From positions 1 through 41,230 of the IMG/VR virus record IMGVR_UViG_3300036985_003956: a stretch of DNA of 41,230 nucleotides; one strand, 5' to 3'. Positions 7,057 through 27,154 of the stretch are shown in pieces (within the stretch, counting starts at the first letter, position 1; every line of letters begins with the position of its first letter). A model generated the notes under the pieces. The model was given only the letters and a program-made list of their open reading frames with translations. It was not told the DNA's origin and ran no database searches. The translations under genes were made by a program, and so were the position numbers. The DNA comes from a virus.

Positions 7057-7539
7057 ATGCCGCGATATACCGAAAGAACACAACGCATTAAAGCTGAACA
7101 CCTGCTAAAGCCGATAATTCGCAATGGTTTCAATCAGACAAAAGCCGCTCGTGAATTAGGATTAACTCCTCAAACGGTAAATGAACAATTCCGGCGTAAG
7201 CCCGTCCAAGATATTCTCCAGAAATTTCTTAACAGTTCAAAACTCAAGAAAACCTTAATCGATGTTGCGAAAGAAGGATTACACGCAAATAAGGTTATAT
7301 CATGTAATGTTATTTCATCCGACGGCGAAGGGATGAAAGATGCAAATTCAATGACGAAAGATTTTGTTGATGTTCCGGATCATCAATCCCGGCATAAATT
7401 TTGGCACGATTTAATGATCGGGTCAGGTGCAATAAAAACAGACGGGTCAAAAGGAGTTACGATTGTCAACGTCGTCCTCGGTTATCGATCTACTAATAGC
7501 GCCTTACGGCAAGAAGTCGGGGCAAGCGAACCGACCTAA
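7057..7539 (+). CDS. terminase small subunit
   Basis: 160 aa from ATG 7057 behind AAAAGGAG. The N-terminal helix-turn-helix (FNQTKAARELGLTPQTVNEQFRRKP) is typical of small terminases, which recognise the packaging site and feed DNA to the large subunit. The 3' end overlaps the large subunit gene by 77 bases. Assignment rests on the HTH plus position. Confidence 0.8.
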   Translation: MPRYTERTQRIKAEHLLKPIIRNGFNQTKAARELGLTPQTVNEQFRRKPVQDILQKFLNSSKLKKTLIDVAKEGLHANKVISCNVISSDGEGMKDANSMTKDFVDVPDHQSRHKFWHDLMIGSGAIKTDGSKGVTIVNVVLGYRSTNSALRQEVGASEPT

Positions 7540-8872
7540 TCCTACTCAACAGCGAGTGTTGGACTGGGTTGATAATATTCGCGCCACGCCTGCCGATAAA
7601 CAGGATCATATTCACGTCTTGTATTTACAAGGCGGTGTTGGTTCTGGGAAAACCCGTGCGATGATGGCTCCGTCGATAGAAATATTGACGCAGATACCGG
7701 GAATACGTATTTTGTGGGGCCGCCTAGATTTTAAAGATTTGAAACTCTCAATCATGGATAAGTTTTTTGAGATTCTTCCGACGGAGTTGATTAAAAATAA
7801 ATCGGAGCAGTATCACTGGTACGATATTTACCAGCCGGAAGAACAGACAGGAAGAATATATTTTAACGGGCTTAAAGATTTAAGCGGTCTTGGCTCGCAA
7901 GAGTTTGGGGTTATCATCGTCAATGAAGTGCATGAAATATCAGAGATGATGTATCGTGCATTGAAACGCCGTTGCCGTCAGGAAGGAGTTATCAATATCA
8001 TTATGATGGAGGGTGAGCCGCCGAATGAGGATCATTGGCTGGCGAAACTTACCGACCCAGGAAATGAAAATTACGATCCGGACATAGAAGCGTGGAAAGT
8101 TTCAACTTATGAGAATTGGAATAACTTACCTCGATCATATACCGGATCGTTAGAAACTATGCCGCAGGCGTGGAAAACAAAATACCTCGATGGTAATTAT
8201 GGTTTTCGTCCTGATGGTACTCCGTATTATACCGGATACCGGGAAGCGATTCATGCGGCAGAATTGGAATGGATGCCGGACAAAGAATTGATTTGTGGAT
8301 GGGATTTTGGATTTAGGCATCCGGCGTGTCTGATAACTCAAGTTGATCATCAAGACCGGTGGTGCTGGCTCAGAGAGATTATCGGTACTGACATCACAAT
8401 TCAGAAATTTGCTGACCATGTTAAAGAGCAGATAAATTTGTATTATCCGAACGCGCGGTGTATTCATTATGGCGATCCGGCATCGAAGCAACACAATGAC
8501 AAGAGCGAGCAGACATCGTGGGATATTTTATTGGCAAAGGGGATTTATCTAAAATATCGTCAGTCAGAATATCGACTGCGGAAAGAAATCATTGAACACA
8601 AGTTATCAACACTCAACGCCGGTCGTCCTCAATTACTGGTGGACAAAAGATTTTGCCGAACTGCTAATGATGGTTTTCTTGGAGGGTATCATTATCCGGA
8701 ACGGAAAGAAGGACAGCCGTTTATAATGAAATTTGAACAGCCTGTGCGCGACGGGTACTATGAGCACGTAATGAATTCTGGCGAATACATCGCCGTCAAT
8801 ATGTTCTCCCCAATAACGCAGAAGAAGTCTTATCGCCGACCGGAACCGGTGATGGTAATGTCAAATATTTGA
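7463..8872 (+). CDS. terminase large subunit
   Basis: 469 aa; starts at TTG 7463 with AAAAGGAG placed inside the small-subunit gene. Walker A is GGVGSGKT. The Walker B-like strand is VIIVNEVHE, with Asn where Asp is usual. The nuclease domain begins ICGWDFGFRHPA, with a second acidic motif HYGDPASKQ and a third around DGFLGG. It is the ATP-driven packaging motor and headful or site-specific nuclease. The length is normal for the family. Confidence 0.92.
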   Translation: MSTSSSVIDLLIAPYGKKSGQANRPNPTQQRVLDWVDNIRATPADKQDHIHVLYLQGGVGSGKTRAMMAPSIEILTQIPGIRILWGRLDFKDLKLSIMDKFFEILPTELIKNKSEQYHWYDIYQPEEQTGRIYFNGLKDLSGLGSQEFGVIIVNEVHEISEMMYRALKRRCRQEGVINIIMMEGEPPNEDHWLAKLTDPGNENYDPDIEAWKVSTYENWNNLPRSYTGSLETMPQAWKTKYLDGNYGFRPDGTPYYTGYREAIHAAELEWMPDKELICGWDFGFRHPACLITQVDHQDRWCWLREIIGTDITIQKFADHVKEQINLYYPNARCIHYGDPASKQHNDKSEQTSWDILLAKGIYLKYRQSEYRLRKEIIEHKLSTLNAGRPQLLVDKRFCRTANDGFLGGYHYPERKEGQPFIMKFEQPVRDGYYEHVMNSGEYIAVNMFSPITQKKSYRRPEPVMVMSNI

Positions 8873-8883
8873 GGTGCATAAAA

Positions 8884-10884
8884 ATGAATGACCCACGAAT
8901 AAAAGTTGAACAAGGGCAAAGAAAACAGATCGCCACTATTGTATGTACAGAGATTAAAAATTCTCTGGGAGGGAACGCCAAGATATACGATAAGGCCCGC
9001 CGGTGTGAAAACCAGTATAATCAGGTTACCAAGTGGATGGAGTTGGGAAAAGTTTGTGGAACTCCCTGGCCGGGGGCGGCTGATTACTTTGTCGCTTTGT
9101 CTGAGTGGATTGTTGACGCTATCTATGCGCGATTGATGTCAATACTATTTTCACAAGAACCGTATATGAAAGCGTCTGGTGCTGATTCTGCCTCTGTTGA
9201 CAATCAGGATAACGCTACCGATTTTGTTGACCAAGTATTCCGCGATAAAGTAATGTTGTACGAAAACACGAATTTCTTTTTTAAGCAGATGATTAAATTA
9301 CCGATGGCGATTCTCAAATATGATTGGGTTGAGAATTACGATGGGAAGATTTCAAGAGCGCAGGCAAATACGTTTGTGGGCCCGAATGGGGAACAAGAAC
9401 AAATGTTGCCGGATGATCCGGAAGGGATTTCTCGAACTGCTCAGTTGATTGCTAACGGATATCAGCAGGGAGAACCGCAGGAAGTTTGGACGTATGAAGA
9501 CGTGGAAATATACTCCGGGCCTAAAGCGCAGTATATTGATATCAAAGATTATGTCTGGACACCGGGAACGAAGCGCGGAGAAAAACCGTATTGGGAAGGT
9601 GATCGGTGTTGGTTTACGATAAATGATATGCTTTTAAAAGTCCGGCAGGAAAAGTTTGACGCTGATGCAGTTTCTAAAATCCAAGAGTCTGTAGGCACAG
9701 GATTATCGGGGAATAATCTCATCATCAAACAGCGCGAAACTCCGATTGAGTGTTTCCATTGGTACGGGAGATTGCCTTTTAATACTAACGGAGAAATTGA
9801 TTTAAGCGGTGCGGATACTATCGAGCAAGAGGTTTACTGTTTGGTTTCGCTTAAAGAAGAAGAGCTGCTCGATATTATGACATGGCCGTATGAAAGATTC
9901 CCGGCAGAAGATAGAGTTTATATCCGGGGAGAATTTGAAGAGACAACTGAGTTTGAAGGCCGGTCAATGATTGAGAAGCTTTATAAAACACAGCAGGAAT
10001 TAAATGATTTGCATAACACTATCCAGAATAACGCCTGGATTGCTATGCAGAAAATATTTGTTAAGCGTAAGGGATTGGCCGGCGATGATTATGAGAAGCC
10101 AAAAGTATTCCCTGGTGCAATGTGGGAAGAAGATACTCCCGGAGATATTCGCGTATTGGAAATGGGCGATGTAAAGGCAGTTGGATTTGAACTTGAGCAA
10201 ACATTGCTTTCGTTCGCAGAAAGAATCTCCAATATTTCTAACTGGAATTTAGGTACACAGAAACAACAGGGTAAGGCTACCGCTACAGAGTTTATGGGAG
10301 TTATGCAAGAGGGAAATATCGGGCGCGAGCCGTTACTTCAACGGTGTTATAAAATCCTTTCTAAGTTGTGCGACTGGACGATTGATTATTACCGTGGGCG
10401 TATTAATCCCGGAATGGAAAGGACGCTGAGTAATGGAATGGGAGGAAGAATATTACCTTCTCAAAAAAATATCGGATTATATCAGCAAAGAGGAATTAAT
10501 CCAGAATGGAGCGATGAGCTTGTATCCGGTAATTTTCATTGGGATTGGCAAGGAACGACTTTAAATTCTGATAAGCAATGGAACCTGATGGTTGACAATG
10601 ATCTGATGCAACAGTATATGCCGCATCCGATGATTAGTGGTAATTTGCTTGCGGTGTGGACGATCATGAAAAAAGGGTTGATTGACCGGGGAGTTAAAAA
10701 CTGGGAAGAAATAATCCCCAAAAAAGAAGCTATAATCATGGAGATGCAGAGGATGGAACAGGAAGCGCAGATGAAACGCGCTATGCCGGGCGCGAGTTTA
10801 GGCAGGCCCGTTCCTCCGCGCCCTGATAATGTGCAAGCGGTACAACAGCAGATAGGCGGTGGAAACAATGTTCCCGTTCAGTAA
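8884..10884 (+). CDS. portal protein (P22-like)
   Basis: 666 aa from ATG 8884, behind GAGGTG and seven bases of spacing. The large size, early region (WMELGKVCGTPWPGAADYF), long central stem/wing region and Gln/Pro-rich C-terminus fit podovirus portals of the P22 type. TQQELNDLHNTIQNNAWIAM matches the conserved helix of this family. It forms the dodecameric ring through which DNA enters and leaves. Confidence 0.88.
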   Translation: MNDPRIKVEQGQRKQIATIVCTEIKNSLGGNAKIYDKARRCENQYNQVTKWMELGKVCGTPWPGAADYFVALSEWIVDAIYARLMSILFSQEPYMKASGADSASVDNQDNATDFVDQVFRDKVMLYENTNFFFKQMIKLPMAILKYDWVENYDGKISRAQANTFVGPNGEQEQMLPDDPEGISRTAQLIANGYQQGEPQEVWTYEDVEIYSGPKAQYIDIKDYVWTPGTKRGEKPYWEGDRCWFTINDMLLKVRQEKFDADAVSKIQESVGTGLSGNNLIIKQRETPIECFHWYGRLPFNTNGEIDLSGADTIEQEVYCLVSLKEEELLDIMTWPYERFPAEDRVYIRGEFEETTEFEGRSMIEKLYKTQQELNDLHNTIQNNAWIAMQKIFVKRKGLAGDDYEKPKVFPGAMWEEDTPGDIRVLEMGDVKAVGFELEQTLLSFAERISNISNWNLGTQKQQGKATATEFMGVMQEGNIGREPLLQRCYKILSKLCDWTIDYYRGRINPGMERTLSNGMGGRILPSQKNIGLYQQRGINPEWSDELVSGNFHWDWQGTTLNSDKQWNLMVDNDLMQQYMPHPMISGNLLAVWTIMKKGLIDRGVKNWEEIIPKKEAIIMEMQRMEQEAQMKRAMPGASLGRPVPPRPDNVQAVQQQIGGGNNVPVQ

Positions 10885-11421: not shown

Positions 11422-11796
11422 ATGAATAATTATATTCTATTTTTTTTATTGTTGTTTATCGCGTACTCAGACTTTGAAAGAAAAATCATTCCTAACTGGA
11501 TTGTAATTCCGGGGATTGTTGCAGGGTTAATTGTCGGACAGCATTATTTTTGGTGTGCGATCATGTTTGGGATTGTGGCTATAGAGTACGGACTAGGATT
11601 GATGGCAGGTGGAGACGTTAAATTGTTTTCAATGATTGGGGCTTTCTTAGGAATCAAGGCGTTATTTGTTTTTTTGCTGACATTATTATTGATGCGGTGG
11701 TGTGTATCTATAAATCGCAAATTTAGAATCGCAGATTTCGCTAAAATACCGGTGGCTCCGTTTGCATTGGTATCAAGTTTGTTTTGTATGAGGTAA
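11422..11796 (+). CDS. prepilin-peptidase-like membrane protease (A24/CpaA-TadV type)
   Basis: 124 aa, about four transmembrane helices. Both catalytic-aspartate motifs are present: YSDFERKIIPNWI near residue 17 and GGDVKLFSMIGAF near residue 72. The latter matches the G-x-G/GGD-x-K signature of A24 prepilin peptidases. The short length without an N-methylase domain is typical of CpaA/TadV. These enzymes cut prepilin leaders at the inner membrane. It lies between head genes, one base after the previous stop, so it is part of the late operon. Pili are common phage receptors; a role in altering or using them is inference. Confidence 0.8.
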   Translation: MNNYILFFLLLFIAYSDFERKIIPNWIVIPGIVAGLIVGQHYFWCAIMFGIVAIEYGLGLMAGGDVKLFSMIGAFLGIKALFVFLLTLLLMRWCVSINRKFRIADFAKIPVAPFALVSSLFCMR

Positions 11797-11862: not shown

Positions 11863-12861
11863 ATGAATAAGTGGTTAAAATTCTTAGCTAATATCTACCG
11901 AGACGTTAGAGGTGAGGGAGAAGGCGATCCCGGTGGTGCAGGTTCAAACGGACAAGGCGATGCTTCCGGTGATCCCGGAGCGGGCGCGCCCCCGAATGGA
12001 ATAGATGGTGCAGGAGGGAATCAGGGAACAGGAGACGGTGGACAAGGTGGAGACATCCCCATTAATCCTAAGTACGGTGATTTCGGAGATTCTCCCAAAA
12101 CGATTGAGGAAGCACAGGCGTTGCTTGATAAGCTGTACGGTGAACATTCAAAAATCAAGCCGGAGTTTGAAAATTTGCGGGGAAAAACTCAGGCAACTGA
12201 GCGGAACCTTGCAAATCTTCGCAAAACTCTAAACGCTCATGGGATTCAGGCTTTAACCGATGAAGAAGGGAATTTGCGCCTTGAGGTTGTTAAACAACAG
12301 ACTGCTCAGCAAAAACGGTTTACGGATGCGCACAAAAATGAGCTTTATCGTTTTTTTGCTACTCCAGAAGCCGGGGAGAAGTTTGTTAATATCCTTACCG
12401 CTATGGTGCAGGATCATTTTGATGAATCCTATAACGGCAGGCAAAAACAATATCAGGAACAAATGACCCAACAGTCCGTATTTAGGCAAGCGCAGACTCA
12501 TTCCAATAATTTAATGCTTTCTTACTTCCCGCAGTTGGATGTTGCGAAGAAGGAAGGGTTTGATGAGAGTTTTTATTCCCGCGCTACAGAAATATGGCAG
12601 GAGAAATTTTCAAAAGAACCCCGCGGAGAATTATTGGCGGCGCTTGAAGCGGCTAAAGAACTGAATATCATTCCTCAAGCGGTAAGTGCGGCAAAAAAAG
12701 AAGGGTTCAAACAAGGACAGGCAGGTAAAAAGATTATCGGGCCTGTTGGCGGTGGAAAAATGGGAGGAAGCGGGACAGGAGGGAAATTAACTTCTGAGCA
12801 ATATTCTCAGCTTACTCCAGAGAAACAAGTTGAATACGACAAAAAAACATTGGGTTTATAA
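11863..12861 (+). CDS. scaffolding-type head assembly protein
   Basis: 332 aa, between portal and coat genes. The Gly-rich, low-complexity region at residues ~18-60 is followed by a charged coiled-coil core (EEAQALLDKLYGEHSKIKPEFENLRGK) and a basic, Gly-rich C-terminus with KKEGFKQGQAGKK. This composition and position are usual for phage scaffolds, which template procapsid assembly. AGGGGTG precedes the ATG. No sequence-level family call. Confidence 0.75.
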   Translation: MNKWLKFLANIYRDVRGEGEGDPGGAGSNGQGDASGDPGAGAPPNGIDGAGGNQGTGDGGQGGDIPINPKYGDFGDSPKTIEEAQALLDKLYGEHSKIKPEFENLRGKTQATERNLANLRKTLNAHGIQALTDEEGNLRLEVVKQQTAQQKRFTDAHKNELYRFFATPEAGEKFVNILTAMVQDHFDESYNGRQKQYQEQMTQQSVFRQAQTHSNNLMLSYFPQLDVAKKEGFDESFYSRATEIWQEKFSKEPRGELLAALEAAKELNIIPQAVSAAKKEGFKQGQAGKKIIGPVGGGKMGGSGTGGKLTSEQYSQLTPEKQVEYDKKTLGL

Positions 12862-12872
12862 TGGGAGGCACT

Positions 12873-14192
12873 ATGTTTGCTTGGTTAAGAGGAGTATATG
12901 CGATACTGAAAGACCAGGCCGGATGGACTACAGAAATGTCAGTTACCGGAATTGCTGAGGTTGATGCGGCAATCCCGGAATACTGGGCGACTTCTATTTT
13001 TAAAGATGGAAACCGCGAAAGTTTCTGGGGTTCTTTGTCCGGTGGGGAAGGTACGTTTATGCCCGTAATTGATAAAACAGGTCAGCTCAAAAACAATGGC
13101 GATCTGCTTCATATCAATATCATCGAACATTTAATGGGTTCGGGCGTAACGGGTGAAAGTGTTTTGAAGGGGAACGAAGAAAAAATGGGAATCGGTCAGA
13201 TGACAATCACTGCCGACATCGTACGCCACGCGGTTTCTATATCCCGCAAGGCTACGAAACAGGCTAATTTCGATACTATCCAGCAGATTAAACCTTTGAT
13301 TAAAGACTGGATGGCACGGAGATTAGATTCTGATGGATTTTCTGCGTTTATTGACGCTTCCGGGATTGACACGGTTTACGCTAACTCGAAAACTTCTGTT
13401 GGTACGCTTAATGCTACCGATGGAGATAGATTCGGGCCTAACGAAATCGGATTAATTTCTCTGGCGTTGAAACGGTTAGGAGCATTACCGCTTAAAACCG
13501 GGAAAGTCAATGGCCGCACCATTCCTGTTTACGGATGTGTTTTCGGAGAAGTCGAGGATTACTGGCTTAACCAGAATACGTCGTTTGTAAACCAGATCAG
13601 GGATTCGTGGGAACGGTTCAAGGGAGATAATGGAGAACATCCGCTTTTCCGGGGAGCAGTAGGGATTTACAAGAACGTGCTTTTGTATCCTTACTACGGA
13701 AACCTGGATTTACCGCAGGGTACTCCGTTACGTCCTGAGACAACGCTTTCTGCGACTCTGGTTACTGCAGGAACAACGGCGTATGTTGGAGTGGCGGCTG
13801 ATGCTAACACCAAAGCTGATTACACCGCGTTTTTCGCTTCTGCTGGTTCGTTACAGATAGAAGATGAGATAATCTCTTATTCTGGAAAAACTGTTTCTAC
13901 GTTTACCGGATTAACGAGAGGTGTATCAAGTACAACTGGCGCACAGCATACAGCCGGTGCTTTGGTTACTCAGCGTAATGTTTCAACTGTAATCGGGTTT
14001 GGCGCACAGGCTCTTGTCCGGGCAATGCCGGAAGAAGCTGAGCCGATTGGCGAGAAAGACGATTACGGCGAACAGATCGGGTTGGGAGTAAGGGCGTACT
14101 ATGGTTACAAGGTACGCTATTCAAAACGGCGCGCGAAGCCGGCAGCGGCAGTATTGCTGAAATGTATTTCCGATAACCCTGGAACAGTATAA
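12873..14192 (+). CDS. major capsid protein (N4-gp56 / DUF4043-like)
   Basis: 439 aa from ATG 12873 behind GGGAGG. GSGVTGESVLKGNEEKM and ADIVRHAVSISRK are the conserved core of N4 gp56/DUF4043 coat proteins. A segment at about residues 290-370 (SLQIEDEIISYSGKTVSTF..., HTAGALVTQRN) looks like an inserted beta-rich surface domain. An in-frame ATG at 12861 lacks a ribosome site. It forms the HK97-fold icosahedral shell. Confidence 0.85.
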   Translation: MFAWLRGVYAILKDQAGWTTEMSVTGIAEVDAAIPEYWATSIFKDGNRESFWGSLSGGEGTFMPVIDKTGQLKNNGDLLHINIIEHLMGSGVTGESVLKGNEEKMGIGQMTITADIVRHAVSISRKATKQANFDTIQQIKPLIKDWMARRLDSDGFSAFIDASGIDTVYANSKTSVGTLNATDGDRFGPNEIGLISLALKRLGALPLKTGKVNGRTIPVYGCVFGEVEDYWLNQNTSFVNQIRDSWERFKGDNGEHPLFRGAVGIYKNVLLYPYYGNLDLPQGTPLRPETTLSATLVTAGTTAYVGVAADANTKADYTAFFASAGSLQIEDEIISYSGKTVSTFTGLTRGVSSTTGAQHTAGALVTQRNVSTVIGFGAQALVRAMPEEAEPIGEKDDYGEQIGLGVRAYYGYKVRYSKRRAKPAAAVLLKCISDNPGTV

Positions 14193-14205
14193 CATGGAGG
14201 ATAAA

Positions 14206-14664
14206 ATGAAAAAGTTTTCGTTCGTTTTAAGCCTCTTGATGGTGTTTTTACTGTCAACGGGTGCGTTTGCGGCTACAAAGGCAAGTCGTGCCGTTGTAAG
14301 TTCGGGGGTTGAACAGGTGGTAGGACTGGGAGATTTATCTTCTGGAGATACTGCCGAAGTCAATTCCGTGGGCGGAGTTGCTACCACGAGGAAAGCGGTT
14401 GCGGTTACATCGCAAATGGGAGATGCTTTGGTTTATACCGGAGCTTGCTATATTCAGGGGATACAGATATCAGGTGCTACGGCAGGGGATTCTTTAGCAG
14501 TATATGATGCAGTATCTGCTACGGGAACTCCGAAATATGATCCCCGGATAGCGGCTAATACGTCATCGGTAACAGTTGATGGTTTCGGTGCTCCGTTTAC
14601 GACTGGGATATACGTTGACGCATCTGCTGCAACTATGTTTTCTACAGTGATATACGACTATTAA
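14206..14664 (+). CDS. secreted protein of unknown function (152 aa)
   Basis: Start 14206 is fixed by GGAGG five bases upstream. Clear Sec signal peptide (KKFSFVLSLLMVFLLSTGAFAA) with likely cleavage after AFA. The mature part is Gly/Ser/Thr/Val-rich and probably beta. It sits where podoviruses often carry head-decoration genes, but the signal peptide argues for export. Ends just before a terminator. Confidence 0.75.
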   Translation: MKKFSFVLSLLMVFLLSTGAFAATKASRAVVSSGVEQVVGLGDLSSGDTAEVNSVGGVATTRKAVAVTSQMGDALVYTGACYIQGIQISGATAGDSLAVYDAVSATGTPKYDPRIAANTSSVTVDGFGAPFTTGIYVDASAATMFSTVIYDY

Positions 14665-14676
14665 CAAACAGTGAGG

Positions 14677-14709
14677 CCGGGAGCGGGGGCAATCCGCTTC
14701 CGGTTTTTT
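14677..14709 (+). terminator. rho-independent terminator
   Basis: Stem CCGGGAGCGG / CCGCTTCCGG (10 bp with one G-U), 7-base loop, then six T's at 14704-14709. It separates the head block from the membrane and surface block. Confidence 0.8.
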
Positions 14710-14712
14710 AAA

Positions 14713-15741
14713 ATGTTTGATTTAGCATTAAAAGTGATTCTCTTTCTCTCTCCGATATGTTACCCCATCGGCAGCCCCTTGGAGACGTTTGATATGCTGT
14801 TCTTCAGGATTGCCTCCGTGGTTTTGTTCATAGCGTATCTCATAGACCGAGATATCGTCCGAGAAATATCCATAAGTACTCGATATCTTATCGCGGCGTT
14901 GATGGGCATTGGTGTGTTCAATGTTTTCGTAAATACATTTCATCCCGTAACCTTGTCATCATTATTCAATCTTCAACTTGCTTGCCTGGACTTATTCCTC
15001 ATCATAACGAAATGCAAAAATCATAAATCGATATTCAAGTGGATAGTTTACGCGGGGATTGTCAATATTGTAATATTTATTCTACAGCGCGTAGGATATG
15101 ATTTTATATTTGATAACGTCAAACAAGAAGTGGGAGATAAACAGCAAAGCGGGATGTTGGGGAATCTTCCGCGATTCACGACGTACTTAGCGTTGATTGT
15201 TCCTTTTGCAATATCAACAAGTTGGATAGGGGCTATACTATTTTTTCTTGTCTCGATATGGGCAATGCAGTTTCCAGTTATTGCGTGTATGTTTGTTGTG
15301 TTATTCATGCTTGCTAATGATAACAGGAAAAAGATTTTTATGGTTTCTTTGCTTGGAATATTCTGCGTGGTGTTCTTTCGCCATATCTTAACATCGTTTG
15401 ATGTTCGATGGAATCAGAATGGTAAATTTGTATTAGATAAATTGTTCAATCGTCCACTATTGGGATACGGGATGGGTTCGAATCCCATAAAAGATAATGC
15501 TGAAGTTATCGGTAACAGTTTTTTACAGTTTATTGTTCAAGTTGGATTTATCGGGCTGGCATGGATTATTTATGCCATGAAGAAAATACGGGTTACGCGA
15601 GATATTGAAACCGTGGCATTGTACTCGATGTTCGCGTTAATGATGATAGAGTACCCACTTGCCATTCAGAAACTTTGGTTAACAATGATTGCGATAGTGG
15701 CGTTTGCCATTATAAAACAGGAGGAGTTATCATGCTTGTAG
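14713..15741 (+). CDS. O-antigen polymerase/ligase-like membrane protein (Wzy/WaaL superfamily)
   Basis: 342 aa from ATG 14713; about ten hydrophobic segments. The most telling motif is near residue 250: FNRPLLGYGMGSNPI then NSFLQFIVQVGFIGL, matching the H/R-x-L-G-x-G...N-x-x-L core of the Wzy_C family. Such proteins polymerise or ligate lipopolysaccharide O-antigen at the inner membrane. In a phage this suggests serotype change that blocks superinfection. The start lies four bases after a terminator and has no good ribosome site. Confidence 0.65.
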   Translation: MFDLALKVILFLSPICYPIGSPLETFDMLFFRIASVVLFIAYLIDRDIVREISISTRYLIAALMGIGVFNVFVNTFHPVTLSSLFNLQLACLDLFLIITKCKNHKSIFKWIVYAGIVNIVIFILQRVGYDFIFDNVKQEVGDKQQSGMLGNLPRFTTYLALIVPFAISTSWIGAILFFLVSIWAMQFPVIACMFVVLFMLANDNRKKIFMVSLLGIFCVVFFRHILTSFDVRWNQNGKFVLDKLFNRPLLGYGMGSNPIKDNAEVIGNSFLQFIVQVGFIGLAWIIYAMKKIRVTRDIETVALYSMFALMMIEYPLAIQKLWLTMIAIVAFAIIKQEELSCL

Positions 15742-16038: not shown

Positions 16039-16581
16039 ATGAAAATTAAGTCAGCAATAATCTTAACCTTAGCGGCAATGTTGATTTTTTCTAATGCGTA
16101 TGCGTGGAATGATTCAACAGGAACGAGAAGCAAGAAGGAATCAACGAGCGTTGATGCTAATTCAGTTGTTATTTATGGGAAATATGGAACATCTATTAGA
16201 CCTATGACTGTTGATGCCAACGGATCAAGCGCAGTTGTCGCCACCCCATCTACTGGAACCCGCGTTACTCACCGCGCCACGATAACCGACACTAATGACA
16301 CCTATACCTACGGTTCGGGGGATACAGAGAGAATATCTCTTGCCGGATATAAATATGCAATTGTCGAAATAAAAATAAGCGGGGCAAATGCTAGTTGGGA
16401 TATTACCCCAGAATTTGGAGATGCAACAGCGTCAACGTATTTTAAGTCGACAACTAGGACAGTTACGAGAAATGAGCGTTTTGTGATTGAAGTAGACGGG
16501 GAAACGCTGTTTATGATTAGGTGCGACAATAAACAAGGGACAACTCCGACAATAACCGTATATGTTACGCCGTTTAACTAA
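16039..16581 (+). CDS. secreted beta-rich protein (180 aa)
   Basis: Sec signal peptide (MKIKSAIILTLAAMLIFSNAYA, cleavage after AYA), then a Thr/Ser-rich beta-type body (GSGDTERISLAGYKYAIV...). GGAGGAAGAA precedes the ATG. It lies immediately upstream of the receptor-binding fibre. Role unknown; could be a periplasmic or surface factor. Confidence 0.7.
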   Translation: MKIKSAIILTLAAMLIFSNAYAWNDSTGTRSKKESTSVDANSVVIYGKYGTSIRPMTVDANGSSAVVATPSTGTRVTHRATITDTNDTYTYGSGDTERISLAGYKYAIVEIKISGANASWDITPEFGDATASTYFKSTTRTVTRNERFVIEVDGETLFMIRCDNKQGTTPTITVYVTPFN

Positions 16582-16595
16582 AAGAGGAGGATGGA

Positions 16596-18095
16596 ATGCG
16601 CGATTTAATTGAACCAGATGACGATATAATTATATATAGTTTATATTCCAGAGATGTGAAATGGGGTTTAAAAACTCCTTACGCAACGGCTGGAAACAGG
16701 ATGATTTTAGTTTCCCCTAATTTTTTATCTCTTGAAAATAGCGGAGTTGTTAATGTTTTGAAATTACCGTTAGAGATAGATGTTTCTAACGCAATAAACT
16801 GGGACACAATAACTCCGACGGATTACACAGCTGCATCTGCTCGCGCAGGAAAAGATTTTTATATTTACGCATTAAAATCTTCACATGGTGCTGCCCCTAG
16901 ATTTATTCTTTCCGCAGCCTCAACTTATCCCAGTGGATACACCGCGCTCAATAGCCGCAAGATCGGTGGGTTTCACTGTTTGTGTGTGAGTGTGGGCACG
17001 ATCGCAAGCCATGATTTGACCGATTTTGTGGCGGGTGATGTTTTGCCGGCATCGATCTGGGATTTGAATCATAAACCAAAAGTGGCGAATCCGGAGGGGA
17101 TGGTTTACTCACTGAAGGCGAATATCTGGGTAGGGATATATCTGCCATCCGGAACCGGCGCGTCAACCGCTTCCGTCAACGGCGGGACAATTTCGGATTC
17201 GCGCGATTGGATGGATTTTACCGATGATGGCGCCGCGGTGAATAAGCGTATGCTGCGGGACCGGGAATTCCAAGTTATCGCCGCAGGGTGTAATGAAGGC
17301 ACCAATATTGCTGGAGACTCTGACCCGGTGACAACCGGCGGCCATGTGGACACAGCCGGCAGGCGCATGATCTCTAATATCGGATGCGAGGATTGCGCGG
17401 GCGTCATGCATCAGTGGCTAGATGAGCAAAGTTTCCGTTGTGACCCTGACGGATCAGTTACTGCGGCAGGATTAACGTCTACGATTACCCATGATGACAC
17501 ACCCGGGGGGAACCCTGTATACCTGAGGCAGGCGTCAAGCGGACTGTATTATCTGGCCTCCAATATGGCCGCAGCCGCGGTTGATAAATACATCGGCCCG
17601 GCAAACTATAAGATCCCGGTTAAGCATGAGGCGGGGGCCGCCACAGGCGCAATCGGCCAGGTGTATTTTGACGATGACGCGGCAAACGCGTACGAGAAAT
17701 TACTCTGCAATATCTCGACGATCGCTAAGAATATATTCATCCCGACGAATAACCCGACGTATTTCCTGGAAATTAAACATGACGCAAGCGCGGCCACTAA
17801 CGGCACAGCGGTTAATTTTGACGATGGCGCGGATAACCGCCTGGAATCAAATAATGCCGGCGGCGCAAACGCTACGTTTGATATTTCGCTAAATAGCCAG
17901 ACATTAGCGGATTATACACTCCCCGGGTCTAAGGGAAAACTTTATAGACAAGGGACGTATGGAGACGTAAAGCTAATTGGCGGCCGTGCTTGGTTTGCTG
18001 GCTCGTCTTGCGGCTCCCGCGGGCGTCTTGCGAATACCTGGCGCTGGAATACGAATTCGATTCTCGGCTGCCAGTTCTGCGCGGAAAGTATATAA
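16596..18095 (+). CDS. receptor-binding tail fibre with DGR-type variable C-terminal lectin domain
   Basis: 499 aa. Residues ~1-110 are an AT-rich, probably particle-anchoring part. From about residue 115 (KIGGFHCLCVSVGT..., NHKPKVANPEGM, RDWMDFTDDGAAVNKRML, SNIGCEDCAGVMHQWL) it matches the C-type-lectin-fold targets of diversity-generating retroelements. The end, VKLIGGRAWFAGSSCGSRGR then W-NTNS-LGCQFCAES, is the typical variable region: fixed GG, CGSR, RW and G-x-x-F-A-E-like residues with variable residues between. Base composition becomes GC-rich from about 16940, suggesting domain transfer. No DGR reverse transcriptase or template is in the window. Confidence 0.8.
   Translation: MRDLIEPDDDIIIYSLYSRDVKWGLKTPYATAGNRMILVSPNFLSLENSGVVNVLKLPLEIDVSNAINWDTITPTDYTAASARAGKDFYIYALKSSHGAAPRFILSAASTYPSGYTALNSRKIGGFHCLCVSVGTIASHDLTDFVAGDVLPASIWDLNHKPKVANPEGMVYSLKANIWVGIYLPSGTGASTASVNGGTISDSRDWMDFTDDGAAVNKRMLRDREFQVIAAGCNEGTNIAGDSDPVTTGGHVDTAGRRMISNIGCEDCAGVMHQWLDEQSFRCDPDGSVTAAGLTSTITHDDTPGGNPVYLRQASSGLYYLASNMAAAAVDKYIGPANYKIPVKHEAGAATGAIGQVYFDDDAANAYEKLLCNISTIAKNIFIPTNNPTYFLEIKHDASAATNGTAVNFDDGADNRLESNNAGGANATFDISLNSQTLADYTLPGSKGKLYRQGTYGDVKLIGGRAWFAGSSCGSRGRLANTWRWNTNSILGCQFCAESI
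17978..18092 (+). other. DGR-type variable region
   Basis: Last ~38 codons of the fibre gene. Several variable-looking sites carry GCT, TTT, TCG, TCT, TGC, CTT, ACC, TGG, ATT or CTC where related proteins differ, between conserved CGSRGR and W-NTNS motifs. No second copy (template repeat) was found by eye on either strand. Confidence 0.6.
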
Positions 18096-18763: not shown

Positions 18764-19660
18764 GTGAAGAAAATAATACTGCCTCTTATTTTTATATTTT
18801 TATACACCATTGCTTTTTCGCAAAGTTTAAGAAGCACTTGGAAAGATGTCGATGATTTAAGAGATACCGTAACCGATAAAATACCAACTATTAGTGAAAC
18901 GTATTCTCTCGGAACATCAACGTCAAAATGGAAAGATTTATATTTAGGGGGAATTTTAAATGGAGATGATTTTGTTGGAAACTCTTTGACACTCACCGGA
19001 ACTACTACCGACGGTTCAACCTATATCTACACCGGAAAGGACAGCTCTGGATCAACGGTAATACAGCACAACACTAACGGAAATGTAAAATGGGCTTCTC
19101 CTAATTTACGCACACTTAACCTCAGACCGGGGCTTGTAGAAAAATCAAGTAAAAGCAGTGGTACGCCAACACAGGTTTATCGTGGATGTAATACGGGGTA
19201 CTCTATTCCTGTTTGGTCGACCCCTGTAAATGCGGACGAAGAATTATACTGGCGCATGAGAATACCTGTTCGATGGGATGGTACTACTGACCCTCAATTC
19301 GGGGTGTGCGTTACTTTGGCTGCAGGGGAAGATGTGGGGGATAAATTCAAGCTTCAACTTGAATGGCAAACGTCGGCTAAAGGTAACGTCATGGGTACGA
19401 CAACGTCAAGCGTTGTATCTGAACAGACAATACTTACCGGACGTAATGACGCATACGACACTTACTTCGTGTTTTTTACGTTCGATGCCGACAATGTTAC
19501 TAACCCGATAATCGCAGGAGAGATGCTACAAGGCAGAGTTCGCAGGATAGCGGCTTCTTCCCTTGAGGTTACAGGAGAGGTTATTGTTTGGGATTGGTCA
19601 GCTATCTGGCCCGTGGATAAAGTTTATGGCGATTGGTCAGTGAGTGCTAACGATTCATAA
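18764..19660 (+). CDS. secreted/tail-associated protein with signal peptide (298 aa)
   Basis: Starts at GTG 18764. N-terminal hydrophobic signal (KKIILPLIFIFLYTIAFSQS), then SETYSLGTSTSKWKDLYLGG, a motif common near the N-terminus of tail-fibre/tailspike modules, followed by a beta-rich domain with a predicted carbohydrate-binding-like pattern (WTPVNADEELYWRMRIPV region). A signal peptide on a fibre-like protein is odd. It may instead be exported from the infected cell. Confidence 0.6.
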   Translation: MKKIILPLIFIFLYTIAFSQSLRSTWKDVDDLRDTVTDKIPTISETYSLGTSTSKWKDLYLGGILNGDDFVGNSLTLTGTTTDGSTYIYTGKDSSGSTVIQHNTNGNVKWASPNLRTLNLRPGLVEKSSKSSGTPTQVYRGCNTGYSIPVWSTPVNADEELYWRMRIPVRWDGTTDPQFGVCVTLAAGEDVGDKFKLQLEWQTSAKGNVMGTTTSSVVSEQTILTGRNDAYDTYFVFFTFDADNVTNPIIAGEMLQGRVRRIAASSLEVTGEVIVWDWSAIWPVDKVYGDWSVSANDS

Positions 19661-21740: not shown

Positions 21741-22481
21741 ATGGGATTGGGTCTGATACGCGGTAGCATTTGTACGGCGATAAGTGATAACACGGGTGAT
21801 GACAGTATTGACGCACGGGTGAAGATACGGCGGATAATCAACCGGCGCGGACAATCTTTCTGCGATATTACTAATTTTCCCTTTCTCCGCAGTGATATTT
21901 CTTTATCAATAACCGTTCTGGCGCATACATATTCCGGGGCAAGTTATCTTCCTACTACGTTTAAGCGCGTTGTGGCGGCGTATCTCTTGGATGGTTCTGA
22001 TCGGACACCATTAAAAGAGGTTGGAATCGGGGAATGTTACCAGTGGGGAAACCCGAACGATAATCAAGGTAAGCCGGATGAATTTTGTATAAGCCGGATT
22101 GAAGATGGGTACTGGGAAATAAAGTTTAATCGGCTGCCGGACGCTTCTTATACGGTTTATTTTGAGATAGAATTGCATTGGGTTGATGTTGATGAAAGTT
22201 CATCCGGGGATAGCACTGAATTGTTGATAACGAAAGACTACTACGATTATTTTACTCATTATTGCTGTATTGAACGGTTTGCACAGCAGGGAGATACGGA
22301 GAATTATCAAATATACGATGATAAATGGTTTAATCCTACAAAGCCGCAAACAAGTTTGCTGACGAAGATGTTAAATAAATTATCTTCTCCGGTTAAACAG
22401 CGCGCGGTACAGGTGGATATGGAAATGTGCGGGAGAGTATTTGACACTACCATAAGTGATTATACTACGGAGAAAGCATGA
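21741..22481 (+). CDS. head-tail adaptor-like protein (246 aa)
   Basis: Directly upstream of the nozzle-like gene, where podoviruses encode the adaptor/tail-tube A protein. ARVKIRRIINRRGQSFCDIT and YYDYFTHYCCIERFA fit the helical core of such adaptors. GGGGGTAAAT precedes the ATG. It would dock on the portal. The call is from context plus weak motifs. Confidence 0.6.
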   Translation: MGLGLIRGSICTAISDNTGDDSIDARVKIRRIINRRGQSFCDITNFPFLRSDISLSITVLAHTYSGASYLPTTFKRVVAAYLLDGSDRTPLKEVGIGECYQWGNPNDNQGKPDEFCISRIEDGYWEIKFNRLPDASYTVYFEIELHWVDVDESSSGDSTELLITKDYYDYFTHYCCIERFAQQGDTENYQIYDDKWFNPTKPQTSLLTKMLNKLSSPVKQRAVQVDMEMCGRVFDTTISDYTTEKA

Positions 22482-25371: not shown

Positions 25372-26034
25372 ATGGCCGCATTAAGTATGACAAGAAAAAC
25401 GGCGAACACACTCATTACAGCTACCGGATTCAATTCAAATTGGGATGAAATTGAGGCTGTAATAAATGCGCTTACCGTAGATAATTTTGCGGATGATTGT
25501 ATTACCGCCGTTAAGTTAAATTCCGACGTGGTGCGGACGAATTATGGGCTTGCTCAACATACCGACGGGAGTTTATACGTCGATGTTTATGGCGTAATGG
25601 TAAACGCTGGGACTAACGGCGTGGAATGGGGACGAGCAGGAGATATGCTTTTATCATCTTCAGCAGTTACGCCGGATGGATTCAGTGATGTATCCGCGAC
25701 TTATGAAGGTAAATTCATACGCATATCCGCAACGGCGTTGACGGCTGGCGGAGCGGATACGCATACTCACGCGGTAGGGAGCTTTGCGGCAGATAGCCAT
25801 ACGCTGAGCGTTGCGGAAATGCCAGCGCATACCCATTATATGTCAGCAGGTTCAGGAGGTGTTAATAACGGAAGCTATAACTATGCGTCCTCAAATGATA
25901 CATTGGTTAGTACAACCATAATATCACAATCAACCGGTGGCGGTGGGGGACATACTCACACAATTTCAGGAACATCGGCAAGTGGAAGCAACGTTCCGGT
26001 TTATGTTTCATTAAAGGCATATCAAAAATCATGA
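25372..26034 (+). CDS. tail collar / short tail fibre-like protein (220 aa)
   Basis: AAAGGAGGAATT precedes the ATG. The C-terminal half carries histidine pairs (THTHAVGS, GHTHTISG, MPAHTHYM) and ends VPVYVSLKAYQKS, the hallmark of phage collar/short-fibre tips where histidines bind metal in a trimer. The N-terminus is an attachment region. Confidence 0.78.
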   Translation: MAALSMTRKTANTLITATGFNSNWDEIEAVINALTVDNFADDCITAVKLNSDVVRTNYGLAQHTDGSLYVDVYGVMVNAGTNGVEWGRAGDMLLSSSAVTPDGFSDVSATYEGKFIRISATALTAGGADTHTHAVGSFAADSHTLSVAEMPAHTHYMSAGSGGVNNGSYNYASSNDTLVSTTIISQSTGGGGGHTHTISGTSASGSNVPVYVSLKAYQKS

Positions 26035-26357
26035 ACCCCTTAACCCTATTCCAGCCGAAACACAAACGTAACCAGGACTTGAAAGAGCGCGTCCTCAAGA
26101 ATAAGGAGGCGGTGCTTGATGTGATGGCGAGCAATATTCAGGGTGCGAAGCAATGCGAAGCACTCATGGGCGCTAAGTGCCTGGGGCAATTCTGCGAAAA
26201 GTTTTTAGAATTTAAAACTAAGAATGATGCGACAGGGCAGGAGACAAGTTACTGGCGATGTGCGCATATTCAAACACCCTTGTTAATTATTGAACTTATA
26301 CAGAACGTCCGCGAGACAAACATATTATTAACTGAACTTATAAAAAAGGGGGGATGA
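26031..26357 (+). CDS. hypothetical tail-region protein (108 aa)
   Basis: Overlaps both neighbours by four bases. Four cysteines (C-E-A...C-L-G-Q-F-C, W-R-C) suggest a metal site, followed by a hydrophobic helix. No family recognised. Confidence 0.55.
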   Translation: MNPLTLFQPKHKRNQDLKERVLKNKEAVLDVMASNIQGAKQCEALMGAKCLGQFCEKFLEFKTKNDATGQETSYWRCAHIQTPLLIIELIQNVRETNILLTELIKKGG

Positions 26358-27154
26358 TGAGACGAGGATTTAGGTTATTATGGAATATTTTAAAAGACGA
26401 ATCTGGGCTGTGGAATTTTGGAAGTACGATATTCTCTGGGTTGGCTGATAAAAAAGCTCAAGAAGAACGCGGGGATATTCCACAAATACAAAACTGGCAA
26501 AATACTGACCAGATAAAAACAGCATTATCAGGACAGATTCTGGGTGCATTGAACGGGAAAAGTAACTATAAATATAATCCCGCGTTTGAAACTGCTCAAC
26601 CGGAAGTTGAAGCGGCGGCGCAGAAGAATATTTTAGGATACTTAAATAATCCTACATCAAACGTAGGAGACTATGGAGAAGCAACAAAGAAATATTCCGA
26701 CGCTATGAAAGCAAGCATGGCTGAGACATATGCGAAAGAAATGGATGATACAAAAAATATGTATAATCGGTTAGGTCTTGTATCATCTACGCCGGGACTT
26801 ACCGCTCAGGGAGACGTAAGCCGAAAACAGGCAACCGAATCAAATCTTTTTGATTCTCAGTTGATGTATCAGAATCTTGACAGACAGTTACAGGCACAAG
26901 GGATGGACGTTAACCAGATGAATGATTACCTTAACCAAGCTCAGGTATTAGGGCAGAATCAACGCGGATATCAACAGAACGCAATTAACCTTTCGTTGGC
27001 TGATCAGCAACAGGTTGAAAATCTTGCTATGCAGTATTTACAAGCTGGAGCGGCTTCTCCTGCAGAAGCGTACCAAGCGGCATTAGAAGAATGGGCGCAA
27101 CCGAACAAATACGATAGAATCAGCGCAATGTGGAACGCGCAATCAGGATTTTAA
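26354..27154 (+). CDS. virion ejection-type protein 1 (266 aa)
   Basis: Located after the tail genes where podoviruses encode injected proteins. Gln/Asn/Ala-rich and helical throughout (NLDRQLQAQGMDVNQMNDYL, SLADQQQVENLAMQY). A short hydrophobic/amphipathic start could insert in membranes. Assignment is by position and composition only. Confidence 0.55.
   Translation: MMRRGFRLLWNILKDESGLWNFGSTIFSGLADKKAQEERGDIPQIQNWQNTDQIKTALSGQILGALNGKSNYKYNPAFETAQPEVEAAAQKNILGYLNNPTSNVGDYGEATKKYSDAMKASMAETYAKEMDDTKNMYNRLGLVSSTPGLTAQGDVSRKQATESNLFDSQLMYQNLDRQLQAQGMDVNQMNDYLNQAQVLGQNQRGYQQNAINLSLADQQQVENLAMQYLQAGAASPAEAYQAALEEWAQPNKYDRISAMWNAQSGF

Follow-up and report, generated by a model that had tools for sequence, protein, structure and literature searches.

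The phage analyzed here appears to encode its own prepilin peptidase for use on its own particle. The gene at positions 11422-11796 of the window (the whole stretch of 41,230 nucleotides) encodes, on the evidence of its sequence and a structural model, a genuine A24 (type IV prepilin) peptidase with predicted activity on Gly-ended leaders. Short leaders of this kind are found on the scaffold, the capsid and other virion proteins of the phage and its relatives. We consider it probable that these virion proteins are the substrates of the phage-owned peptidase, which would cleave them at the membrane and thereby release membrane-assembled particles. The family and fold of the enzyme, its conserved catalytic residues, the leaders and the set of proteins that carry them, the link between leaders and peptidase, and the boundary marked by the leader Gly were observed directly.

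The peptidase gene and its setting in the late region

The late region of the window runs from the terminase gene (7463) through an SU10-like portal gene (8869), two small genes, the peptidase gene, a scaffold-like gene (11863) and the capsid gene (12861) to tail and fiber genes. The first-pass annotation had located the peptidase gene inside the late operon among capsid genes, and it does lie between the portal gene (8869-10884) and the genes for the scaffold and major capsid proteins. The features considered below are as follows.

7463-8872 (+), terminase large subunit, no leader (PF04466, phrog_979)
8869-10884 (+), portal protein, no leader, used as query for relatives (PF23899, SU10_portal)
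11422-11796 (+), A24 prepilin peptidase consisting of the peptidase domain alone, with Asp17 and Asp65 as catalytic residues (PF01478, model, FlaK match, invariant residues)
11863-12861 (+), scaffold-like protein, leader MNKWLKFLANIYRDVRG then EGEG... (location between the A24 and capsid genes, composition)
12873-14192 (+), major capsid protein, leader MFAWLRGVYAILKDQAG then WTTEM... (Phage_capsid_3, E 1e-16; phrog_334)
21741-22481 (+), putative neck/adaptor-like late protein by position, no leader in the window
25372-26034 (+), tail fiber-like protein, no leader in the window (phrog_2097, tail fiber)
26354-27154 (+), late protein, putatively internal or ejection-like, leader MMRRGFRLLWNILKDESG then LWNFG... 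(leader scan)

The window is probably near complete (41,230 bases, with four relatives of 41.3-42.3 kb). Several other late genes drew attention. Just behind the capsid gene, 14671-15741 (+) encodes a polytopic membrane protein (about 340 residues) that is conserved, looks like an O-antigen polymerase or ligase and has no Pfam match; its counterparts are found at L001:7520, L004:16954, L011:7702, L012:7743 and L057:5584. The products of 14194-14664, 16039-16581 and 18764-19660 (+), one of them directly behind the capsid gene, have N-termini that resemble ordinary Sec-type signal peptides and are conserved in relatives, so some virion or fiber-like proteins may be exported. The gene at 16596-18095 (+) carries the second domain of Mtd (PF21916) and encodes a receptor-binding protein like the major tropism determinant.

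The peptidase gene starts with ATG and encodes 124 amino acids. Residues 5-90 match Pfam Peptidase_A24 (PF01478) with 50.3 bits (E 3.7e-13; curated cut-off, 26.5 bits), and the same family is matched by 23/23 phage homologues, which are 25-41% identical to the window protein. The first Asp motif reads ...IAYSD17FERKIIPN... and the second, of the GxGD type, reads ...GGD65VKLF; variants of the latter include A-G-G-D-V-K in the window and G-E-G-D-S-K in L011. D17, G64, D65 and K67 (G64-D65-x-K67) are invariant in the alignment of the 23 homologues. An A24 peptidase with both Asp motifs intact had been claimed for this gene, and the family match and the constancy of these residues bear out that claim.

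An AlphaFold2 model built with the 23 phage homologues has a mean pLDDT of 94.4. When it was compared with known structures by VIA-align 2, the top match was the GxGD protease FlaK (crystal structure 3s0x_B; Z 11.6, rmsd 2.6 Å, 121/124 residues aligned), and the runner-up in the same list had a Z of 4.8. The model thus has the polytopic membrane fold of FlaK. Foldseek gave no good match for the model in the PDB, FlaK being absent from its list, and among viral models it returned two unnamed proteins with TM scores of 0.75 and 0.65. PHROGs holds no family for the peptidase. The methylase-associated domain of PilD-type enzymes (A24_N_bact, PF06750) was not matched in the six frames of the window, which places the peptidase with the TadV/CpaA/FlaK type, in keeping with the earlier description of a membrane protein of CpaA/TadV size. 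Synonymous and non-synonymous codon changes in three close pairs of peptidase genes were 33/20, 29/34 and 30/29; given that non-synonymous sites outnumber synonymous ones by more than two to one, these counts point to constraint.

Relatives were gathered by IMG/VR scans with portal, capsid and peptidase queries. The peptidase is carried by 26 contigs (two near-identical pairs included) of an uncultured phage lineage from about 18 metagenomes. It lies between the portal and capsid genes in 18 contigs having both, whereas the more distant L026 and L057 have it about 5 kb past the capsid gene. The remaining peptidase contigs end ahead of the capsid gene (five) or begin past the portal gene (one), and four portal-only contigs stop too early to show whether they carry it. 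The first-pass annotation had raised misassembly as a concern, but the independent contig L001 encodes a peptidase 98% identical to that of the window, and this identity, together with the synteny in 18 contigs, indicates that the window peptidase is not chimeric. Neither the portal nor the peptidase has a relative in 50,697 phage records, so the lineage is one without cultured members. Bacterial and archaeal genomes scanned with capsid and portal profiles gave no matches, and thus neither host nor prophage. Weak A24 matches in MT837871 and MT835812 were dropped because these appear to be bacterial contigs, as was a further match, L128, an element with topoisomerase genes in which no virion operon was seen.

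Gly-ended leaders on virion proteins

Pilins and pseudopilins (Flp_Fap, N_methyl and TadE profiles) and the pilus traffic ATPase (PF00437) gave no match in the window. The missing ATPase argues that the system is not of the type IV filament or Tad secretion kind. To this extent, the earlier statement that no pilin-like substrate gene is obvious holds, but Gly-ended leaders are present on the scaffold, the capsid and other virion proteins.

The scaffold-like protein, whose leader would be cut after codon 17 (after base 11913), has an acidic, Gly/Pro-rich N-terminal region and no Pfam match in the window. Its name rests on position and composition, and a counterpart in a second phage type, L054, matches a PHROG head scaffolding protein. 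A leader was found in every scaffold homologue that was read. The capsid reading frame opens at 12861, and the true start is likely to be at 12873, shortly behind GGAGG, with a predicted cut after base 12923. A leader is present on the capsid protein in 21/21 peptidase-bearing contigs with a readable capsid N-terminus, and all contigs of the lineage with the peptidase and readable starts carry leaders on both scaffold and capsid. In L004, for example, the scaffold begins with MWWKLLWSIILDQRG followed by EEPG and the capsid with MLEHLKKFFLAILLDIRG followed by WDTEM. In L019 the capsid leader sits in the exon ahead of an insertion; this insertion, probably an intron, contains a LAGLIDADG-like reading frame and splits the capsid gene (L019:3660-4420) a short way past the leader. 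The capsid protein of the window also has a beta-rich insertion at residues ~290-371 (SLQIEDEIISY...FTGLTRG) that is common to tail proteins of many unrelated phages. The model of the capsid protein was poor (pLDDT 46.6) and was left unused.

The leaders are 12-21 residues long with the consensus L-x-D-[EQ]-[RS]-G, and Gly is present in 43/43. In the capsid alignment, this Gly is the sole invariant residue ahead of the capsid domain; to either side of it, both sequence and length vary. The ending D-E-S/R-G recalls that of Flp leaders. Prepilin leaders have 6-26 residues, end in an invariant Gly(-1) and are cut on the cytoplasmic side (PMC4471445), and the phage leaders agree with them in length and in the final Gly. 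They do not agree in what follows: the hydrophobic tract of about 21 residues expected behind Gly is lacking in the scaffold (hydrophilic) and the capsid (near neutral), so these proteins are not prepilins. Mean Kyte-Doolittle values are about +1 before Gly and, after it, -1.1 in the scaffold and +0.25 in the capsid. The leader is too short for spanning a membrane and only moderately amphipathic (mean moment z 1.3).

Other late proteins carry leaders in varying sets. The product of 26354-27154 is 50% identical to that of L042:4975-5778, which is likewise leader-bearing. The window neck protein (21741) has a leader-bearing orthologue at L042:364 (leader MFKLLWLIFIDEFG; 58% identity, the alignment beginning right behind the leader at GLG), and orthologues of the window fiber protein (25372) bear the leader MNLLLKILFDEEG (61% identity, the alignment again beginning behind the leader). 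Both window proteins start, after Met, at about the residue following the Gly of their relatives. In L059, the capsid protein (35% identity across the whole protein) starts at the same post-Gly boundary and the scaffold is leaderless; no A24 gene is present in the 20-kb L059 record, which is a fragment. At the place of the polytopic membrane protein of 14671-15741, no equivalent was seen in L059. Two cultured members of the wider family that have no A24 gene, Paracoccus phage KLEP18-1 and Acidovorax phage AP1, encode capsid proteins free of such a leader.

A second phage type with both elements is L054, an unrelated T7-like phage (portal phrog_145, E 1e-69; scaffold phrog_206) with an A24 gene placed elsewhere than in the window lineage. 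Its scaffold leader ends in NSFLSMIGNERG followed by EGDGG, and the PHROG match begins at residue 40, directly after Gly39; the next gene, for a probable capsid protein, begins with MKKRFMFMLLWALTNQNGAG followed by ETT. Directly behind the A24 gene of L054 (18390-18744, cut by the contig end) is a reading frame for a glycosyltransferase-looking protein without a Pfam match, which begins with the leader MKIFKFLILILNERG then EAEAE.

It is hardly credible that the leaders are a chance resemblance and the peptidase an accidental passenger. Hydrophobic N-termini are frequent, the motif is simple and the search expression catches a few chance N-termini. However, leader-like N-termini were found in 44/497 genes of peptidase-bearing contigs versus 3/599 genes in 64 contigs without the peptidase (Fisher p 1e-12), a descriptive figure, as the pattern was set after the first leaders had been seen, the genomes are related so that counts are not independent, and a few of the 44 are matches by chance. 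The single invariant Gly, the exact boundary between orthologues and the spread over about 18 metagenomes also speak against chance.

Candidate substrates and alternative readings

The reading that we favor is as follows. The scaffold, the major capsid protein and varying sets of internal, neck and fiber proteins would be made with a short N-terminal leader, a hydrophobic helix followed by D-[EQ]-[RS]-G. The leader would seat these proteins on the cytoplasmic membrane at its inner face, the side on which the active center of the peptidase is expected to lie, and particle assembly would thus be gathered there. The peptidase would cleave behind the leader Gly, and this would detach mature proteins, or a completed prohead, from the membrane. 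We infer the cleavage, the membrane tethering and the timing and order of these events.

Several lines of evidence point to virion proteins as the substrates. First, the leader Gly is invariant, like Gly(-1) in prepilins. Second, the peptidase gene has a conserved place between portal and scaffold, and the link between peptidase and leaders outlasts gene moves, as L026 and L057 with their displaced A24 genes keep their leaders. Third, leaders are far commoner in peptidase-bearing contigs. Fourth, leader-bearing and leaderless orthologues (adaptor, fiber and L059 capsid) align from behind Gly. Fifth, A24 and a leader-bearing scaffold occur together in the unrelated L054. Furthermore, A24 enzymes are membrane-bound and cut on the cytoplasmic side, so their substrates must reach the membrane, and a hydrophobic leader would bring them there; with a hydrophilic or near neutral chain behind Gly, a cut would set the proteins free, whereas pilins stay in the membrane. 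Some observations weigh against this reading. As the hydrophobic part precedes Gly in scaffold and capsid, the enzyme would have to use another mode of substrate binding. In addition, the leader is short for a membrane span and of moderate amphipathicity, and the lack of A24 in L059 was seen in a 20-kb fragment.

From the missing substrate gene, the first-pass annotation had suggested that host prepilins (type IV or Flp pili) might be the targets, with a receptor altered or release helped; in a fuller form of this explanation, which names type IV or Tad pili, a receptor could also be removed or superinfection stopped. In its favor, A24 peptidases show promiscuity towards different kinds of pilin (PMC4471445), and the window is without a pilin. 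Pili are, moreover, common phage receptors. This explanation nevertheless seems very unlikely, since it leaves unexplained both the Gly-ended leaders that accompany the peptidase on the phage's own virion proteins and the steady placement of its gene between portal and scaffold; a piliated host would also have a peptidase of its own already. Host pilins could still be acted on in addition to the virion proteins.

A second alternative is that the leader is a tag for prohead targeting or membrane docking that A24 does not cut, being removed by another protease or not at all, while A24 has another job in the membrane. The hydrophobic part ahead of Gly would suit such a tag, and the presence of leaders on scaffold, capsid and internal proteins resembles that of the N-terminal peptides cut by gp21 in T4 (PMC9958956). 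We regard this alternative as distinctly unlikely. The invariant Gly at the leader end fits the prepilin rule, A24 and leaders occur together in two unrelated phage types, and the catalytic Asp residues are conserved. Nor was another protease recognized among those virion genes that were tested, and none of the ten genes lying between 7463 and 16019 matched, in Pfam or PHROG, a prohead protease of the HK97 gp4 or T4 gp21 type.

A third alternative shares the cleavage step with the favored reading and differs in its purpose. Here the leader would be a hold-back peptide that blocks assembly of capsid and scaffold in the cytoplasm, and A24 cleavage at the membrane would start assembly, with no membrane-held prohead. 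The sequence evidence for it is identical, and N-terminal propeptides regulate assembly in other capsids. However, some relatives have leaders on fiber and neck proteins, for which the need for a switch of this kind is harder to see and on which, in the window, the leader is dispensable. We therefore consider this alternative unlikely, and prefer cleavage that releases virion proteins or proheads from the membrane.

Relation to known systems

The established role of A24 peptidases is the processing of pilins and pilin relatives. Compared to TadV/CpaA of Tad/Flp systems (MEROPS A24) and archaeal FlaK (3S0X), the window enzyme is likewise an A24 domain alone without a methylase domain, with two Asp motifs and the FlaK fold; it differs in being phage-encoded in a virion operon, with no pilins or pilus machinery and with virion proteins as candidate substrates. 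The class III signal peptides of type IV/Flp prepilins resemble the phage leaders in being short, N-terminal and Gly-ended (6-26 versus 12-21 residues), but their hydrophobic tract (21 residues) follows Gly, whereas that of the phage capsid and scaffold lies in the leader. The maturation proteases of HK97-type phages and herpesviruses are encoded beside portal and capsid genes, as is the peptidase here; they are of unrelated fold, act inside the prohead and remove a scaffold domain rather than a 17-residue tag. T4 proheads are assembled at the inner membrane and leave it once N-terminal peptides have been taken off capsid and internal proteins (PMC9958956), much as proposed for the phage here; gp21, however, acts inside the prohead and is not a membrane aspartyl protease, and membrane attachment in T4 is through the portal initiator.

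The peptidase itself is an ordinary member of A24, and any novelty would rest in the system, which is unlike known prohead proteases or pilus systems. Searches of an open-access library gave no account of a prepilin peptidase that acts on phage capsids; a thaumarchaeal case proved to be a conjugative element. Whether these tailed phages build particles on the inner membrane by means of prepilin-type leaders on capsid, scaffold, neck, internal and fiber proteins, released by a phage A24 peptidase, is in our judgment evenly balanced; it would be a new kind of maturation. If cleavage is confirmed, a membrane aspartyl protease would join the known capsid maturation proteases, and a virus would be seen to direct several particle components to a single membrane site by tagging them. 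The tag and its matching protease would be simple and portable, and the old question of why some proheads form on a membrane would become testable.
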